This document shows, in pieces, positions 1 to 5,746 of a stretch of DNA of 5,746 nt; positions within the stretch are counted from its first letter, which is position 1; every line of letters begins with the position of its first letter. Made by a program: the position numbers and the translations under genes. This DNA comes from Gemmatimonadota bacterium (GTDB taxonomy: Bacteria > Latescibacterota > UBA2968 > UBA8231). Location: contig JAPOZF010000109.1 of the NCBI GenBank assembly GCA_026706165.1, forward strand, positions 1 to 5,746, given 5' to 3'. The notes beneath the pieces were generated by a model. It was not told the DNA's origin, made no database searches, and saw only the letters and a program-made list of their open reading frames with translations.

Positions 1-3
1 CAT
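1..3 (-). CDS. start codon of a further operon gene, running off the left edge
   Basis: The first three bases are CAT, so an ATG is read on the minus strand at the very edge. Just upstream of it (minus sense) is a purine-rich stretch, GGGAGAGGG, ending 7 bases before the ATG, which is a good Shine-Dalgarno position. The gap from the stop of the barrel gene is only 25 bases and holds no terminator-like hairpin with a U tract. I infer that another gene of the same operon starts here. Nothing can be said about its product because no further codons are in the window. Confidence 0.4.
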
Positions 4-28
4 TTCAATTCCCTCTCCCGGGTTTGAG

Positions 29-883
29 TCAGTAGCTGCATGAAACGCCGATGCCGAGGGAAGCCCCGGCGCCGATGTTCTCGCCGGCGACCGTGCGTTC
101 CGCCAGAACGTCGACCCAGAAGGGGCCCCGGACGTTCCAGGCGGCGTTGAGGCCTGCCTTGGTGAAATCCCCTTCCGACACCTGGACCGAAGCCCCGACC
201 ACTCCGAGATCTTCGGTGTCCCCGCTCACCCGTGTGTCCTTGCCATCGATGTACGCCTTGACGAACACCCTGGGATGCGGGGTGGCCCCGACCTCGGCAA
301 ACCAGGGTACCTGGTTGGAGTACTCTCCCCCGCGAATGCGGTATCCCCCCTCCAGTCCGACGTAGAGCGGCAGCGGATACAGCGAGCGGGCGGCCAGGAT
401 GCGCACCTCGGCGTCGATCTTCCCGGTGCCGAACGGGGGATCGTAGTCGGCGTTGTACCCCGTGGGCAGCTTGAAAGTCAGCAGCGGAGAAAGGACGACC
501 GGGCCCTCCGTCAGCTGGTATCTGGCGCCGATGTCGACGTCGCCGATTCCCGTCGTCTGCCGGTGAACGAGCCGGTTCTCCGACACGAGGACCCCGGCGT
601 TCGCCTGGGCGATTGCGGTCAGGCGGCCGCCAAGCCCGTATTCGGCGTAGAGGAATCCCTGCGAGCCGGCGAAGGAGTCGCTCTCCTCCCCCATGGGCTG
701 GCGGTTCCCCATGTCGTTGTAGACCTCGTCGGACGAGTAGGATATCCCGGAAAACTTGAGGTAGAGGCTTCCCTTTTCCTGGCTCCAGGCGCCGGCGAAC
801 AGCGGCGGCGCGGCAACGGTCAGCGCCAGGCAGGCCAGCGCCGCGGGCAAACCTCCGAAATCGCGAATGGAAGGCTTCTTCAT
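29..883 (-). CDS. predicted outer-membrane beta-barrel protein (transporter-like, possibly MetA-pathway phenol-degradation family)
   Basis: This is a 284-residue protein from the preferred ATG at 883. The N-terminus (MKKPSIRDF, then a hydrophobic stretch to about residue 30 ending PPLFA|GAW) looks like a Sec signal peptide cleaved by signal peptidase I. The mature part has alternating polar/aromatic strands with many Gly and Tyr, no cytoplasmic motif and no transmembrane helix. It ends in an aromatic residue (GIGVSCSY), as beta-barrels usually do. The segments 'GIGDVDIGARYQL' and 'VLSPLLTFKLPTGY' resemble the putative outer-membrane transporter family around Pfam Phenol_MetA_deg; that family call is from memory and tentative. 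An ATG at 895 would add four residues and overlap the upstream stop as ATGA, but the strong AAGGAGGA at 903-896 touches that ATG, whereas it lies about 13 bases from 883. Cargo is unknown. Its place at the end of a glycan gene run suggests an envelope role, which is inference. Confidence 0.7.
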   Translation of the reverse strand: MKKPSIRDFGGLPAALACLALTVAAPPLFAGAWSQEKGSLYLKFSGISYSSDEVYNDMGNRQPMGEESDSFAGSQGFLYAEYGLGGRLTAIAQANAGVLVSENRLVHRQTTGIGDVDIGARYQLTEGPVVLSPLLTFKLPTGYNADYDPPFGTGKIDAEVRILAARSLYPLPLYVGLEGGYRIRGGEYSNQVPWFAEVGATPHPRVFVKAYIDGKDTRVSGDTEDLGVVGASVQVSEGDFTKAGLNAAWNVRGPFWVDVLAERTVAGENIGAGASLGIGVSCSY

Positions 884-891
884 CGCACGAA

Positions 892-2067
892 TCATTCCTC
901 CTTCCCAAAATCAATGCCGTCATTGCGGATGCGGTCGTAGAAGGCGATCAGCTTGCGGGACTCGAGCCCCCAGTTGTAGCGCTCCTCGACCAGAACCCGG
1001 CCCCTTTTCCCCTTGATCGCCGCGGCGGCCGGGTCCTCGAGCAGTCGCGAGATCTCCCGCGCGTGAGCGGCGGGATCGGACGGGTCGGCGATCGCCCCCC
1101 AGTCCCCCTCCTCGTAGAAGGCCCGGATCGAGGGCAGGTCGCTGGCGACCACCGGAATTCCACAGGCAAGGTACTCGAACAGCTTGGTGGGGACGAAGGG
1201 AGCGAGGTTCTTCACGGAAATCTGGCCGGGAATCAGCCCGATCCTGTGGCGCCGGATCATCTGTCCCAGACGGTCGTAGGGTACCAACTCCTGGCTGCAG
1301 AGTATGCGGTCCTTCAGGCCGCAGGTTTCGAGGCGGCGCCGGAAGTTCGCCTCGTCCTGACTGGTGTGGAAACGGCCGACGGCGCGCAGCCGGACCCCGG
1401 GATGCGTCTTGCCCAGCTCCTGCATGACATCGACGAGAAAGTCGCTGCCGCGGTCCGGCGACAGCGAGCCGAGGTGGAGAAGCTCGCACTCTTCCTGTTG
1501 TCCGCTGCCATCTGGGTGGCCGTTGGCTTCGAACCATTCGAGGCGCGGGAAGTTCCTTACCGCGGCGAACGGACGGTGGCCGAATCTGCTCCCCTGCTCT
1601 TCGACCACTCCAAGCACACCGCTGAGATGCCTTGCGAAGAGGCGTTCGATGCGGTCGAGGGCGACGGAAAATGTGCGGCGCAGCATGCCGGGGACCCAGC
1701 GGCGAACGTACACCGTCTGGGGAAAATGCTCGTGGCAGTCGTAGATGACCTTGCTCCCGGTGAGGCGCAACAGCAACCCCAACGGAAGCAGCTCGGGATC
1801 GTGAAAGTGGTAGATGTCGGCCCGCATCGAAGCGGCCTTGCGAAACAGCGCGAGTGCGTTGACGAGGCGTCCGGAGACCCCGCGGCCCCGCGGAACGGTC
1901 ACCACCCGCACTCCCCCGCGCACTCCTTCCATGTCGCCGGGTCCCGGGCCCGCCACGCAGACCTCGTACCCGGCCGCGGCCAGGCTGAAGGCCTCCTTGT
2001 AGTAGATGCGCTGATCGAGCGGACTGTGCACGTTGGTCAGCTGGCAGACCTTAACAGCCCGTTGCAC
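892..2067 (-). CDS. GT4-type glycosyltransferase (GT-B fold)
   Basis: This 391-residue protein has the normal length for a GT-B glycosyltransferase. The N-terminal acceptor domain shows the 'TNVHSPLDQRIYYKEAFSLAAAGYEV' type opening (about 11-36), 'YHFHDPELLPLG' (86-97) and 'IYDCHEHFP' (108-116). The C-terminal donor domain shows 'LLHLGSLSPDRG' (196-207), 'LRAVGRF' (227-233) and 'PTKLFEYLACGIPVVASDLP' (293-312). This last motif places the conserved Glu at 299. The first Glu of the usual E-x7-E motif is not present, as in other family members of the 'PTKLFEY' type. There is no signal peptide or membrane helix, so it should act at the inner face of the membrane on nucleotide-sugar donors. The start is GTG at 2067, chosen because of an AAGGA 9 bases upstream, a stop codon 9 bases upstream in the same frame, and a 17-base overlap with the WbqC gene. 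The sugar donor and acceptor cannot be told from sequence. Confidence 0.88.
   Translation of the reverse strand: MQRAVKVCQLTNVHSPLDQRIYYKEAFSLAAAGYEVCVAGPGPGDMEGVRGGVRVVTVPRGRGVSGRLVNALALFRKAASMRADIYHFHDPELLPLGLLLRLTGSKVIYDCHEHFPQTVYVRRWVPGMLRRTFSVALDRIERLFARHLSGVLGVVEEQGSRFGHRPFAAVRNFPRLEWFEANGHPDGSGQQEECELLHLGSLSPDRGSDFLVDVMQELGKTHPGVRLRAVGRFHTSQDEANFRRRLETCGLKDRILCSQELVPYDRLGQMIRRHRIGLIPGQISVKNLAPFVPTKLFEYLACGIPVVASDLPSIRAFYEEGDWGAIADPSDPAAHAREISRLLEDPAAAAIKGKRGRVLVEERYNWGLESRKLIAFYDRIRNDGIDFGKEE
896..903 (-). promoter_or_regulatory. strong Shine-Dalgarno (AAGGAGGA) inside the end of the glycosyltransferase gene
   Basis: The minus strand reads AAGGAGGA here, which is fully complementary to the 16S rRNA anti-SD core. 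It lies in the last codons of the glycosyltransferase. The site is too close to the ATG at 895 and somewhat far (13 bases from GGAGG) from the ATG at 883. The second ATG gives the better signal peptide start (MKK), so I prefer 883. Confidence 0.6.
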
Positions 2068-2792
2068 TCTCCATCATCCTTCCCGCGTACTCCGCTCCGC
2101 AGTTGAACAGCAGGTCGAGGGCGGTCATGTTGGCCTCGAAGCCAGGAAAGCACTGGGGATACTCCGGGTGCTCGAAATCGACGAACCGCAGCTCGACCCC
2201 GGCCTCGGCAAAGCAGGACTCCTCGAGGTAGCGGCGCGAGCCCCCGCCGCCGGCGAGGTAGACGTCGCAGCCGCAGGCGAGCGCCATGTCGACGAGCCGC
2301 TCGCTGCGTGCACGGCGCAGCTGCAGGCTCGAGCTCAACCGCGTCTCCACCTCGATCCCGAGCTGGCGGCGCAGGAAATCGCAGAGCGCGACGTTGACGT
2401 CGACCAGCAGGTCCCACCGTCTCTCCTCGAAGAAGCTCGCGAGGAACGGCGCGAAATCGTCGAAATGAAAGCTGCCGCGGTAGTTCCACTCCAGGGTCCT
2501 CCAGTGTTTCGACTGCCAGTTTCCCCCGCAGGTTTCCACCTGCCTGATCTGCTGGCCTCTTCTCCCCCTGGTCCGGACCGGGACCGTCAGCCACTGCCAG
2601 CCGGCGGCCGTGCGCACTCGAACCCGGTTCGTGTACCCGTGCTTGCTGAACGGGACGTCGTCGGCCAGCACCCAGACGTCTGACTGGGCAACCCTGTGAA
2701 AAAGACCAAGCCATGGGAGGTAGTTCGGCTGGTGGGCGGTGAGTGGGAGCGCGGTTGCCGGCCTTGGGAACCCCGCTGCCTGCAGGGCTCAT
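2051..2792 (-). CDS. WbqC-family protein, with an apparent one-base frameshift near the start
   Basis: The body is recognisable as the WbqC-like family: HQPNYLPWLGLFHRVAQSD, then VLADDVPFSKHGYTNR and WLTVPV, and near the C-terminus VDFEHPEYPQCFPGFEANM and ALDLLFNCG. The family occurs in polysaccharide biosynthesis loci, but its reaction is not established to my knowledge. The coding frame is open from 2788 to 2051 but contains no ATG, GTG or TTG before a GTG at 2671. Starting at that GTG would remove the conserved HQPNYLPW block. An ATG at 2792, overlapping the deacetylase stop as ATGA, lies in another frame. Dropping one G from the GGGG at 2774-2771 joins it to the correct frame and gives a 246-residue protein, the length I expect for the family. 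A CTG at 2785 is an in-frame alternative (244 residues). It overlaps the downstream glycosyltransferase by 17 bases. The product is probably cytoplasmic, with no signal or membrane segment. I am confident of the family, less so of the start. Confidence 0.8.
2771..2774 (-). other. GGGG run: likely site of the frameshift in the WbqC gene
   Basis: The minus strand reads ATG AGC CCT GCA GGC AGC GGG G from 2792 down to here. With four Gs, the frame leads into a shadow ORF rich in Arg and Pro. With three Gs, it reads M-S-P-A-G-S-G-F-P-R-P-A-T-A-L-P-L-T-A-H-Q-P-N and enters the conserved WbqC N-terminus. The exact base is inferred from the homopolymer. Any single-base gain between 2792 and about 2733 would have the same effect. 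Confidence 0.5.
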
Positions 2793-3427
2793 GGCATGAC
2801 CCACCGCAACACGTCGAAGGCCTCGGCGTAGTCGACCGAGATCTGGACCCCGCGGCTCCTCGCCCAGCTCCAGATGAAGTCCTCCTCGCTGTAGGGGCGG
2901 GAATTCTGGGACCGGTAGCACTTCAGGGCCTCGACCTTGGTGGCGACGTGGCGGCGCTGAAGGGCGACGAAATGGCGGCAGTCGAAGCTGATGTTGTTCC
3001 ACGGGAGCTCGTAGGCCAGAACCGTTTCCATCTTGAAGGCGCGCAGCCCCTCCATGTACACGGTCTGGTGATCCTGGTGCAGGTCGTGGCTGCTCGGGAG
3101 AAAAACCGTGGAAGGTCTGAGGTCCTTCCGCAGTCGCACCAGCTCTTCGAGGATTTCCTGGCGGACGTGCGGAAGGTGGCGGACGCGGTACTTGTAGATC
3201 AGCAGGTTTTCGCCGGCGATTCCGAGGGCGCGCGTTCCTTCCCTCGCCTCGGTTTCCAGGACGTCGGGCGGGAACTCGGCCGGCACCGACTCCTCTGCGG
3301 TCGAAAATGCGGCGTAGTAGACTTTCCGCCCCTCCTCGATCATGCGGCTGATCGTTCCGCCGCAGCCGAATTCGCCGTCGTCGGTGTGCGGGGCGAGCAC
3401 CAGGACGCGGTTGTTACTCTCCGGCAT
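2789..3427 (-). CDS. PIG-L/LmbE-family zinc-dependent deacetylase
   Basis: This is a 212-residue protein. The N-terminal 'VLVLAPHTDDGEFGCGG' (8-24) is the PIG-L metal and catalytic motif, a variant of the common AHPDDE: His14 and Asp17 would bind zinc and Asp16 would be the base. The second motif 'HDLHQDHQTVY' (114-124) supplies the third His ligand of the family. Family members remove N-acetyl groups from GlcNAc-containing or similar substrates, such as GlcNAc-PI, mycothiol and bacillithiol precursors and antibiotic sugars. No signal peptide is seen, so it is cytoplasmic. The ATG at 3427 overlaps the TetR gene by 14 bases and has a GAGG 6 bases upstream. Its stop overlaps the ATG at 2792 as ATGA. 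The neighbours (WbqC, GT4, and a sugar aminotransferase next door) favour de-N-acetylation of a nucleotide-linked or lipid-linked sugar. The exact substrate is unknown. Confidence 0.88.
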   Translation of the reverse strand: MPESNNRVLVLAPHTDDGEFGCGGTISRMIEEGRKVYYAAFSTAEESVPAEFPPDVLETEAREGTRALGIAGENLLIYKYRVRHLPHVRQEILEELVRLRKDLRPSTVFLPSSHDLHQDHQTVYMEGLRAFKMETVLAYELPWNNISFDCRHFVALQRRHVATKVEALKCYRSQNSRPYSEEDFIWSWARSRGVQISVDYAEAFDVLRWVMP

Positions 3428-4007
3428 GCATTTCCTCTCCGCCGCAGCGAATCCCGAAGACGCGGTAGACCGCTTCGACGACGTCGTCGAGGTAATCCAC
3501 CGCCGGGCCCGGAATGGAAGATTCGCCGATCAACCTCGGCAGGTTGAGCATGAGACCGGTGAAGTGGCTGACGGCAAGGGTCGGGTCGATCTCATCGATT
3601 TCCCCCGCCGCGACCGCCTCCTCGATCATGCCGGCCAGCATCCGCCCCTGCCGTCCGGCGACGTCCCGGATCTGGGGCGGGAAGTCGTGATCCTTGAGCA
3701 GGACATAGGCGAAAGCCTCCGGAAACCTGTCGAAATACTCGTACGTCACCAGTATCCAGGAGCGGAACTTGTGCGGTATCGGTCCGGGGCTTCGCACAAT
3801 GGCCTGTTTCTGCGCGGCCATCTCCGCGACGATCTGGCAGTACGCGGCCTGGCACAGCTCCTCCTTGCTGGAGAAGTGCCTGTATATCGCCCCCTCCGTG
3901 ACTCCCGCCTCGGCGGCGATAGCGCGGACAGTGGACCCGCTGACGCCGTGACGTGAGGCCTCCCGTATGGCGGCGGCGACGATTTCGTTCCTTCGGTTCG
4001 GTCTCAT
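3414..4007 (-). CDS. TetR/AcrR-family transcriptional regulator
   Basis: This 197-residue protein has the usual TetR length. The N-terminal DNA-binding domain is clear: residues 6-51, with the helix-turn-helix 'TVRAIAAEAGVTEGAIYRHF' (26-45) followed by SSKEEL. The C-terminal, all-helical ligand domain is divergent as usual and does not identify a ligand. It is the first gene of a run of closely packed genes and has a perfect inverted repeat 3-22 bases upstream of its ATG, so autorepression of itself and the downstream glycan genes is likely (inference). No Shine-Dalgarno is visible before the ATG (upstream sequence TTTACTTACCG) and there is no other in-frame start before a stop. Translation may therefore be leaderless or weak, which would keep repressor levels low. 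It overlaps the deacetylase gene by 14 bases. Confidence 0.92.
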   Translation of the reverse strand: MRPNRRNEIVAAAIREASRHGVSGSTVRAIAAEAGVTEGAIYRHFSSKEELCQAAYCQIVAEMAAQKQAIVRSPGPIPHKFRSWILVTYEYFDRFPEAFAYVLLKDHDFPPQIRDVAGRQGRMLAGMIEEAVAAGEIDEIDPTLAVSHFTGLMLNLPRLIGESSIPGPAVDYLDDVVEAVYRVFGIRCGGEEMHAGE

Positions 4008-4009
4008 CG

Positions 4010-4029
4010 GTAAGTAAACGATGACTTAC
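4010..4029. promoter_or_regulatory. 20-bp palindrome, probable TetR operator
   Basis: GTAAGT (4010-4015), 8 bases, then ACTTAC (4024-4029) form a perfect 6-bp inverted repeat. It lies in the only gap between the aminotransferase terminator and the TetR start codon, which is where an autoregulatory TetR site is expected. Its size and centre spacing suit a TetR dimer. I cannot pick a convincing -35/-10 pair around it (TTGCGC or TTTACT are weak candidates), but any promoter of the TetR gene must lie on or beside this repeat. Confidence 0.65.
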
Positions 4030-4044
4030 TCACTTGGAACGCGC

Positions 4045-4069
4045 AAAAAAAGTCCCGGGTTCCCCCGGA
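4045..4069 (-). terminator. intrinsic terminator of the aminotransferase gene
   Basis: In minus sense, one base after the TGA of the aminotransferase, the RNA reads U-CCGGG-GGAA-CCCGG-G, a 5-bp all-GC stem closed by a GNRA tetraloop (GGAA) with a U-G wobble at the base. It is followed by AC and seven Us (4051-4045). This is a standard rho-independent terminator and separates the aminotransferase transcript from the TetR-led unit. Confidence 0.82.
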
Positions 4070-4070
4070 T

Positions 4071-5189
4071 TCAAGCGAGCGCACGCACCACCGAGTCGCA
4101 GACCCGGTCCACGTCCTCGAGGCTCATGCTGGCGTGCAGGGGCAGGGTCAGAGTCCTGCCAAGGACATCCTCGGCCAGCGGACAGCGCGCCGGGAAATCC
4201 CCGGCCCGTCGGAGGTAGTAGGGCTCGAGGTGACAGGGGGGCCAGTAGATGCTTCCCGTGGCAATCCCCCGGGCCGAAAGCGACGCCGCCATGCCGTCCC
4301 GCTGCATTCCCGGGGGCAGGACCAGGGGCAGCTTGTAGTGGGAGTGAACCTGGTTTTCCGGGGTGGCGATCAGCCGGATGTCGCTTCGGCGGCCGAGCCG
4401 ATGCCGGTAGCGGTCCGCCAGGCGGGCGCGCCCGGCTACGATTGCATCGAGCCGGCGCAGCTGGCTCAGGCCGAGGGCGGCGCTGAGCTCGGGAAGGCGG
4501 TAGTTGCTGCCGAGCCGCACGATGCTGCGGCTGTCGGCGGCCTGCCCGTGGGACCGGAAGCTGCGGGCGAAGGCCGCCAGCCCCGAATCGTCGGTCGTCA
4601 GCATCCCCCCTTCCCCGCTGGTCATCACCTTGGAGGGATAGAAGCTGAAGGATGCCGCATCGGCGAGGGAGCCGGCGCAGCGGCCCCCGATCCGGGAGCC
4701 GTGGGCATGGGCGGCGTCCTCGAGCAGAAAGAGGGAGTGGGCGCGGCACCACGCGGCCATGGCGTCGATGCCCGGCACGATGAGCCCGGCTACGTGAACG
4801 GCGATTACGCCCCGGGTGCGCGCGGTCAGCAGTCCTTCGATCTCGGCCGGGCCGCTGCAGAGCGTCGACGGGTCGAGGTCGGCGAATACCGGGGTTCCCC
4901 CGGCGAGAATCACGGCGTTGGCGGTGGCGGCGAAGGTGTTGGTCGGCACGATCACTTCGCCCCCCTCGACGCCGAAATGCCGCAGGGCGGTCTCGAGGGG
5001 TGCCGTACCGGAGCTCATGCCGACGGCGCGGGAGACTCCCACGTACTCGGAAAACTCCCGTTCGAAGCGGTCGAGGAACTCCCCTTGTGTGAGCCGGCCG
5101 CTGCGCAGGATCTCGCCGAAATCCTCGAGGAGGCCGTCGATGTCAGCGGGCGGCAGGCTGGGGCCGCCCTTGTCGATCCGGTCAGTCAA
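4071..5189 (-). CDS. DegT/DnrJ/EryC1/StrS-family PLP-dependent sugar aminotransferase
   Basis: This 372-residue protein has the normal length for the family. The opening 'SLPPADIDGLLEDFGEILRSGRLTQG' and 'FEREFSEYVG' match the family start. PLP-site motifs follow: 'MSSGTAPLETAL' (58-69, phosphate-binding turn), 'VPTNTFAATANAV' (81-93), 'LLEDAAHAHGS' (155-165, Asp158 for the pyridine nitrogen), 'FSFYPSKVMTSGEGGML' (181-197, Lys187 as the Schiff-base lysine) and 'GSNYRLPELSAALGLSQL' (227-244). These enzymes transfer an amino group, usually from Glu or Gln, to a keto-nucleotide-sugar. The start is TTG at 5189: it has GAGG 5 bases upstream and is the only ATG/GTG/TTG between the upstream in-frame stop and the family's conserved N-terminus. 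It ends at a strong terminator. It probably supplies an amino sugar for a surface glycan, possibly linked to the neighbouring operon (inference). The regiochemistry and nucleotide sugar are not predictable. Confidence 0.93.
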   Translation of the reverse strand: MTDRIDKGGPSLPPADIDGLLEDFGEILRSGRLTQGEFLDRFEREFSEYVGVSRAVGMSSGTAPLETALRHFGVEGGEVIVPTNTFAATANAVILAGGTPVFADLDPSTLCSGPAEIEGLLTARTRGVIAVHVAGLIVPGIDAMAAWCRAHSLFLLEDAAHAHGSRIGGRCAGSLADAASFSFYPSKVMTSGEGGMLTTDDSGLAAFARSFRSHGQAADSRSIVRLGSNYRLPELSAALGLSQLRRLDAIVAGRARLADRYRHRLGRRSDIRLIATPENQVHSHYKLPLVLPPGMQRDGMAASLSARGIATGSIYWPPCHLEPYYLRRAGDFPARCPLAEDVLGRTLTLPLHASMSLEDVDRVCDSVVRALA

Positions 5190-5262
5190 ATGCGCCTCGA
5201 TTGCTTGCGTTGCAAACCCCTCCGGGCGGTTACGACAGGGGCATCGAGACGGTGCCCGGACC

Positions 5263-5273
5263 CCGGATTCCGG
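5263..5273. repeat. palindrome CCGGA-T-TCCGG upstream of the ispG promoter
   Basis: This is a perfect 5-bp inverted repeat with a single central base. It lies 24 bases upstream of the -35 box of the ispG promoter. Another CCGGA half-site lies at 5256-5260. It may be a protein-binding site or chance in GC-rich DNA. Confidence 0.4.
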
Positions 5274-5297
5274 TGGTCTTCAAACCGGGAAACTTCT

Positions 5298-5327
5298 TTG
5301 ACAGGCTCCAAACGACCTCCATATAAT
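5298..5327 (+). promoter_or_regulatory. sigma70 promoter for ispG (TTGACA-N18-TATAAT)
   Basis: The -35 box TTGACA (5298-5303) and the -10 box TATAAT (5322-5327) both match the consensus perfectly and are 18 bases apart. Transcription should start near 5334, giving an untranslated leader of roughly 47 bases before the ispG ATG at 5381. The local A/T content stands out from the GC-rich surroundings. Confidence 0.88.
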
Positions 5328-5366
5328 CTCTTGGAACAGACCGCGTCACGGCGCTCCATTTCAAGA

Positions 5367-5378
5367 CCGGATGTCCGG
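5367..5378. repeat. palindrome CCGGA-TG-TCCGG at the ispG ribosome binding region
   Basis: This is a perfect 5-bp inverted repeat with a 2-base centre, ending two bases before the ispG ATG. In RNA it could form only a very tight hairpin, so a DNA-binding role or chance is more likely than a stem-loop. The only GGA near the ispG start is inside the second arm, so any pairing would affect ribosome access. Confidence 0.4.
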
Positions 5379-5380
5379 AA

Positions 5381-5746
5381 ATGACCAACCCGGCCCAGCG
5401 CAACCCGACGAGAACGGTGCGGATCGGCAGCACGACCATCGGCAAGGGCCATCCGATCGCCGTTCAGAGCATGGCGGCGACGCGGACCCAGGATGTCGAG
5501 GCTACTGCCAGGCAGGTCCGTCTGCTCGAGGAGGCCGGCGCCGACATCATTCGAGTCGCCATCGACAGCCGCAAAGACGCCGAGGCCCTGACCCGCATCG
5601 CGGGTGAGACCGACACTCCCCTTTCCGTCGACCTGCAGGAAAACTACCGCCTGGCGACCGCCGTCGCCCCCCACCTGCAGAAAATCCGCTACAACCCCCG
5701 CCACCTGTATCACCCCGAAACCGCGCGGCCGGTGCGGGACAAGGTC
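5381..5746 (+). CDS. ispG: IspG (GcpE), 4-hydroxy-3-methylbut-2-enyl diphosphate synthase, N-terminal part
   Basis: 122 codons are present and the gene runs off the right edge. The enzyme converts 2-C-methyl-erythritol 2,4-cyclodiphosphate to HMBPP in the MEP isoprenoid pathway, using a 4Fe-4S cluster held by C-terminal cysteines that are outside the window. The TIM-barrel N-terminus is clear: '[22 protein letters not shown]' region (10-31), '[20 protein letters not shown]' (34-53), 'ADIIRVAID' (54-62), '[12 protein letters not shown]' (81-92) and 'KIRYNP' (101-106), the last corresponding to the KIRINPGN substrate-binding segment. Here the residue after NP is Arg (NPRHLYH) where Gly is usual. 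The ATG at 5381 is the only start codon in frame after the TAA at 5324. The Shine-Dalgarno is weak (CCGGAA). An ATG at 5371 is in another frame. The gene has its own consensus promoter and is a housekeeping neighbour, probably unrelated in function to the glycan genes. Confidence 0.93.

Follow-up and report, generated by a model that had tools for sequence, protein, structure and literature searches.

A WbqC gene whose reading frame is probably broken between its leader and its conserved core

Introduction

WbqC-domain proteins are called functionally uncharacterised in the passages of PMC5532660 that deal with them. The closest relatives of the gene discussed here are five proteins of the WbqC-like family (PF08889) recovered by protein search, P0001–P0004 (244–245 residues, 84–95% identity) and P0005 (188 residues, 87%, with its C-terminus cut short). 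All five are N-terminally intact and carry an 18-residue leader before the motif HQPNY, with leader and core in one frame. WbqC genes are furthermore part of an operon of the order DegT, PIG-L, WbqC, GT4 and an end gene, found at 11 loci of one phylum (L001–L003, L087, L089–L095); the PIG-L deacetylase gene lies directly before WbqC in 10 of these (not in L003) and the GT4 glycosyltransferase gene follows it in 10 (the L090 locus ends before GT4). A PIG-L protein (BshB) and a GT4 protein (BshA) likewise accompany BshC (4wbd), the bacillithiol synthase, which joins cysteine to glucosaminyl-malate. Here we describe a WbqC gene on the minus strand of contig JAPOZF010000109.1, positions 1 to 5,746, a stretch of 5,746 nucleotides (nt) that we refer to as the window. 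This gene shares family, leader length and 84–95% identity with P0001–P0005, whereas a net insertion of 4 nt lies between its leader and its core; the 11 syntenic loci, unlike the window, are without the 18-residue leader. We conclude that this is very probably an ordinary WbqC gene in which, in the present sequence, the reading frame is interrupted between leader and core.

The WbqC reading frame and its missing start

The WbqC body frame (2051–2788, minus strand; open reading frame and Pfam match) comprises 245 codons and a stop, and is open from 2788 down to the stop codon at 2051–2053. An earlier note on this DNA had stated that the frame stays open up to the deacetylase stop without any ATG, GTG or TTG upstream of 2671, and that the family signature is nevertheless encoded there. 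Direct reading of the frames bears this out: the earliest such codon is the GTG at 2669–2671, and upstream of it the frame encodes AHQPNYLPWLGLFHRVAQSD. PF08889 matches residues 20–233 of the open frame over profile positions 1–214 (of 218) with 219 bits, far above the Pfam cut-off of 21.3 bits and across nearly the whole profile, which places the frame in the family. The match of a protein starting at GTG 2671 begins only at profile position 22 and scores 180.8 bits, and the alignment that the note had proposed thus confirms that the family extends upstream of the valine at 2671. A usable in-frame start before HQPN, which is expected of an intact member even though Pfam does not demand it, is absent from the window before 2671.

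The ATG at 2790–2792 (minus strand) is one base out of the WbqC body frame, overlaps the deacetylase stop (TGA, 2789–2791) as ATGA, both as previously described, and opens a frame of 251 codons that runs across the WbqC gene to 2040. The likeness of this ATGA to other junctions of the operon holds for the glycosyltransferase and the end gene (892–895) but not for the TetR/deacetylase and WbqC/glycosyltransferase junctions, which overlap by 14 and 17 nt, respectively. The frame of ATG 2792 fits the N-terminal ends of the five closest proteins. Its leader reads MSPAGSGVPKAGNR, that of P0001 MSPAGSGVRKGGSR; over residues 1–15 it agrees with P0001 at 11 positions and with the other four relatives at 7–9, versus 0–2 for the body frame. 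From residue 16 (LTAHQPNYLPW) it is the body frame that agrees with the relatives. This agreement of leader and core with all five proteins, each in a different frame of the window, supports the earlier proposal that a frameshift separates the WbqC N-terminus from its ATG.

Position of the frame switch

We compared the window with P0001–P0005 as proteins and scored the frame switch by ungapped comparison allowing a single switch. The best position was identical for all five relatives, at 2748 (scores 81–101), and the most likely switch comprises 7 nt at 2744–2750 (minus strand) in place of one codon in the relatives, a net gain of 4 nt. Alternative places over 2742–2757 score up to 9–10 points below the best, and the body frame alone, with no switch, reaches under half of the best score. 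A switch at about 2744–2750 is thus the best supported on these alignments, without being certain.

The earlier note had blamed one extra G in the run GGGG at 2771–2774 (minus strand). The run exists as described, but judged by the sequence and the relatives a switch there costs 21–22 points with P0001, 18–24 with P0002, 14–19 with P0004 and 9–14 with the near-twins P0003 and P0005, the spread reflecting the placement of the other three bases. P0001, the 95% identical relative, retains MSPAGSGV in the ATG frame across GGGG and agrees with that frame after the run at K10, G12 and R14; it is the only one of the five with G-V at the position of the run. P0001–P0005 all fit best with a switch downstream of GGGG, and an extra G is therefore probably not the cause; as the lesion, the run is disfavoured rather than excluded outright.

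Judging by the relatives and the ATGA overlap, translation would ordinarily begin at the counterpart of ATG 2792, probably coupled to that of the deacetylase, and would then read the 18-residue leader followed by the conserved core. In the window a ribosome starting at ATG 2792 would leave the WbqC frame immediately ahead of the core, where 7 nt replace one codon at about 2744–2750, and past the switch it would make an unrelated product, while no common start codon would serve the core before GTG 2671.

The GTG at 2671 (V40 of P0001) has a weak Shine–Dalgarno site (−2.2), and a protein starting there would lack 39 residues in P0001 numbering, HQPNYLPW included. The note had put the loss at about 40 conserved residues; about 21 of the 39 fall within the PF08889 profile. 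When 79 of the 120 listed WbqC proteins are aligned, P25 does not vary, and conservation is 90% or higher for H19, Q20, P21, W26, G28 and D37; all seven would be dropped. The AlphaFold model of P0001 has a mean predicted local distance difference test score (pLDDT) of 94.6, with a poorly defined leader (60 for residues 1–10), and places strand 1 at residues 15–19, a helix at 27–34 and a further strand at 38–41. The GTG 2671 protein would be without strand 1, helix 1 and part of strand 2 and is therefore, according to this model, unlikely to fold.

Intact starts in other WbqC genes

In all 105 WbqC loci read as DNA, a start codon precedes HQPN in frame. Ninety-six were counted mechanically (at most 25 codons upstream) and nine by eye, namely L001 and L019, which had been mis-measured through alignment gaps, and seven haloarchaeal loci with the first start 30–44 codons upstream; the ispG loci L081–L084 and the duplicates L085, L086 and L088 (of L001–L003) were left out of the count. 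At each of the 11 syntenic loci the WbqC start is in frame and adjoins or overlaps the upstream stop. A recognisable motif with 3–15 residues before it is present in 102 of 115 other listed homologues, and the remaining 13 have a variant motif or, once, a late start. Long leaders occur in the seven haloarchaeal loci L017, L031, L034, L035, L042, L050 and L052, and in the clade closest to the window the 18-residue leader (2750–2792 in the window) is variable in sequence. WbqC pieces with in-frame stops are present in two genomes of the phylum, G094 and G089.

DNA from close relatives was sought in several collections and found in none of them. Among genome contigs the best match was 58% (in the best 80 of 172 loci), among 64 genomes of the phylum 59% (matches in 32), and among viral contigs, with 13 WbqC loci, 37%; a megablast search of plasmid and phage records gave no match. 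The 13 viral-classed contigs with WbqC (L100–L112) carry a DegT relative in 12 loci and a PIG-L relative in 11.

Several points weigh against reading the locus as a broken WbqC gene. P0001–P0005 are predicted proteins, and P0003 and P0005 are nearly identical; P0001 is the representative of 17 member sequences, and the comparison rests on that representative. The search with the out-of-frame product as query, in which the one match, P0241, does not have the same shift, is a weak negative, given that 7,982 candidates were scored and that products of this kind may go unreported by gene finders. The 105 loci are moreover a chosen set, 80 of them being the best 80 of 172, and were gathered in part by a pattern search that included HQPNYLPW, so that broken WbqC genes may be under-represented among them.

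Error or mutation

We lean, with modest confidence, towards a local error of sequence or assembly at about 2742–2770, in a strain-mixed or low-quality stretch. The core shows 5 differences from P0001 in the 230 residues after the break, whereas residues 11–15 before it differ at 3 of 5, or at 2 of 4 if residue 15, the one at the break itself, is set aside; P0001–P0004 differ there by 0–1 among themselves. This bunching has a Fisher p of 2.5e-4 for a region chosen after the data had been seen, and substitutions clustered next to an indel are compatible with a poor or strain-mixed part of an assembly as well as with one complex mutation. Near kin in the database point the same way. P0241 (198 residues), from an 8,060-base ENA contig of a near relative, is a mosaic of at least two WbqC frames, matching the window's body frame with 52% over 142 residues and the ATG frame with 48% over 192; the sequence GGSRALP closes P0005 at a point where GGSRRYLEES stands in its near-twin P0003, apparently through yet another break of frame. 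The database thus contains broken assemblies from near kin. An error of this kind has to be reconciled with the absence of any break in the window's other genes and of a tandem repeat or long homopolymer at the site.

A real, recent and strain-specific frameshift that inactivates WbqC is quite possible, though we hold it to be the less probable cause. The net gain of 4 nt lies outside any homopolymer in a window otherwise without breaks, and the bunched changes would suit a single complex mutation; however, the remaining 230 codons show no decay, and a real mutation must therefore be young, and neither the scored candidates nor the 105 chosen loci contain the same shift. The earlier note had named both an indel error and a recent mutation, and the cause most probably lies between these two; its other two suggestions fare poorly.

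Translation from the CTG at 2783–2785 (minus strand), giving a full-length protein with a different leader, is very improbable: the codon is in frame, as the note said, and the frame is open, but the Shine–Dalgarno-like site lies 14 nt from it versus 7 nt from ATG 2792, and before residue 16 the body frame has the poor agreement with the relatives given above. Programmed or leaky frameshifting or phase variation joining the two frames is the least credible cause, since the ATG frame, though open for 251 codons with no early end, is joined in this way in none of the five close proteins, each of which runs in one frame from start to HQPN, and in none of the 105 loci. Phase variation through a simple repeat fails in addition for want of a tandem array or long homopolymer at the switch; the sole pair of direct repeats in the region (2770–2779 and 2847–2856) does not cover 2742–2757.

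The operon around WbqC

On the minus strand the window carries, in the order of transcription, a DegT/DnrJ/EryC1/StrS aminotransferase (4071–5189), a TetR-type regulator (3414–4007), a PIG-L family deacetylase directly upstream of WbqC (2789–3427), the WbqC frame, a GT4-type glycosyltransferase downstream of it (892–2067) and an end-of-operon protein (29–895); the start of ispG/gcpE (5381–5746, plus strand) diverges from them and is cut by the window's end. These genes were assigned from open reading frames and Pfam matches, ispG from its Pfam match; the end gene is an open reading frame without a Pfam match, and an outer-membrane protein would be a guess. The five neighbours of WbqC on the minus strand each align in one piece, over 94–99% of their length, to at least one relative. 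In two of the 11 syntenic loci (L001, L002), as in the window, a TetR-type gene separates DegT from PIG-L. The ispG fragment is 67–75% identical to the genomes of L001–L003, from one phylum, with other full-length matches at no more than 46%; 30 of 35 genomes searched for ispG gave a match, and one of the three closest has a 35-residue second piece at 74%. By this comparison the window would most likely come from the phylum of L001–L003.

WbqC and BshC

The PIG-L protein next to WbqC falls short of the BshB1 deacetylase model TIGR04001 (64.3 bits versus a curated cut-off of 182.5), which is nevertheless its best NCBIfam match. More widely, 34 of 80 loci (L001–L080), from bacteria and archaea, have a PIG-L deacetylase gene no more than 200 nt from WbqC. 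WbqC has the class I synthetase-like core fold of BshC at about half its length, and we tentatively suggest, as a possibility on the doubtful side, that WbqC proteins are free-standing relatives of BshC, or structural analogues of it, of half its size. On a sugar produced by GT4 and DegT proteins they would ligate an amino acid, or another acyl group, to the amine that the neighbouring PIG-L deacetylase sets free. The BshC family PF10079 is not among the 23 families matched by any of 79 WbqC proteins at E values up to 10; hhalign comparisons of WbqC with BshC gave probabilities of 0.2% and 0.8% (P 0.072), not significant, versus 0.1% for a DegT control; and a search by sequence for solved relatives of WbqC returned a chance row only (E 0.87). 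The loose hhalign alignment places HQPN in register with the BshC motif GQQxG. The WbqC passages of PMC5532660 and PMC7848895 make no link between WbqC and BshC; subscription journals lie outside this scope, and we do not claim the link to be unpublished.

Implications

An automatically annotated WbqC would probably be truncated and lack its most conserved N-terminal motif, and correcting the frame at GGGG would yield a wrong leader. If the lesion is real, it would mean loss of WbqC function. For the family, the resemblance of WbqC to the BshC fold and the frequency of PIG-L neighbours make a concrete, testable guess at its chemistry. If that guess is true, HQPNYLPW would form the loop that follows strand 1, the site of substrate binding in class I synthetase-like enzymes, and the frameshift in the window would cut off exactly this element.
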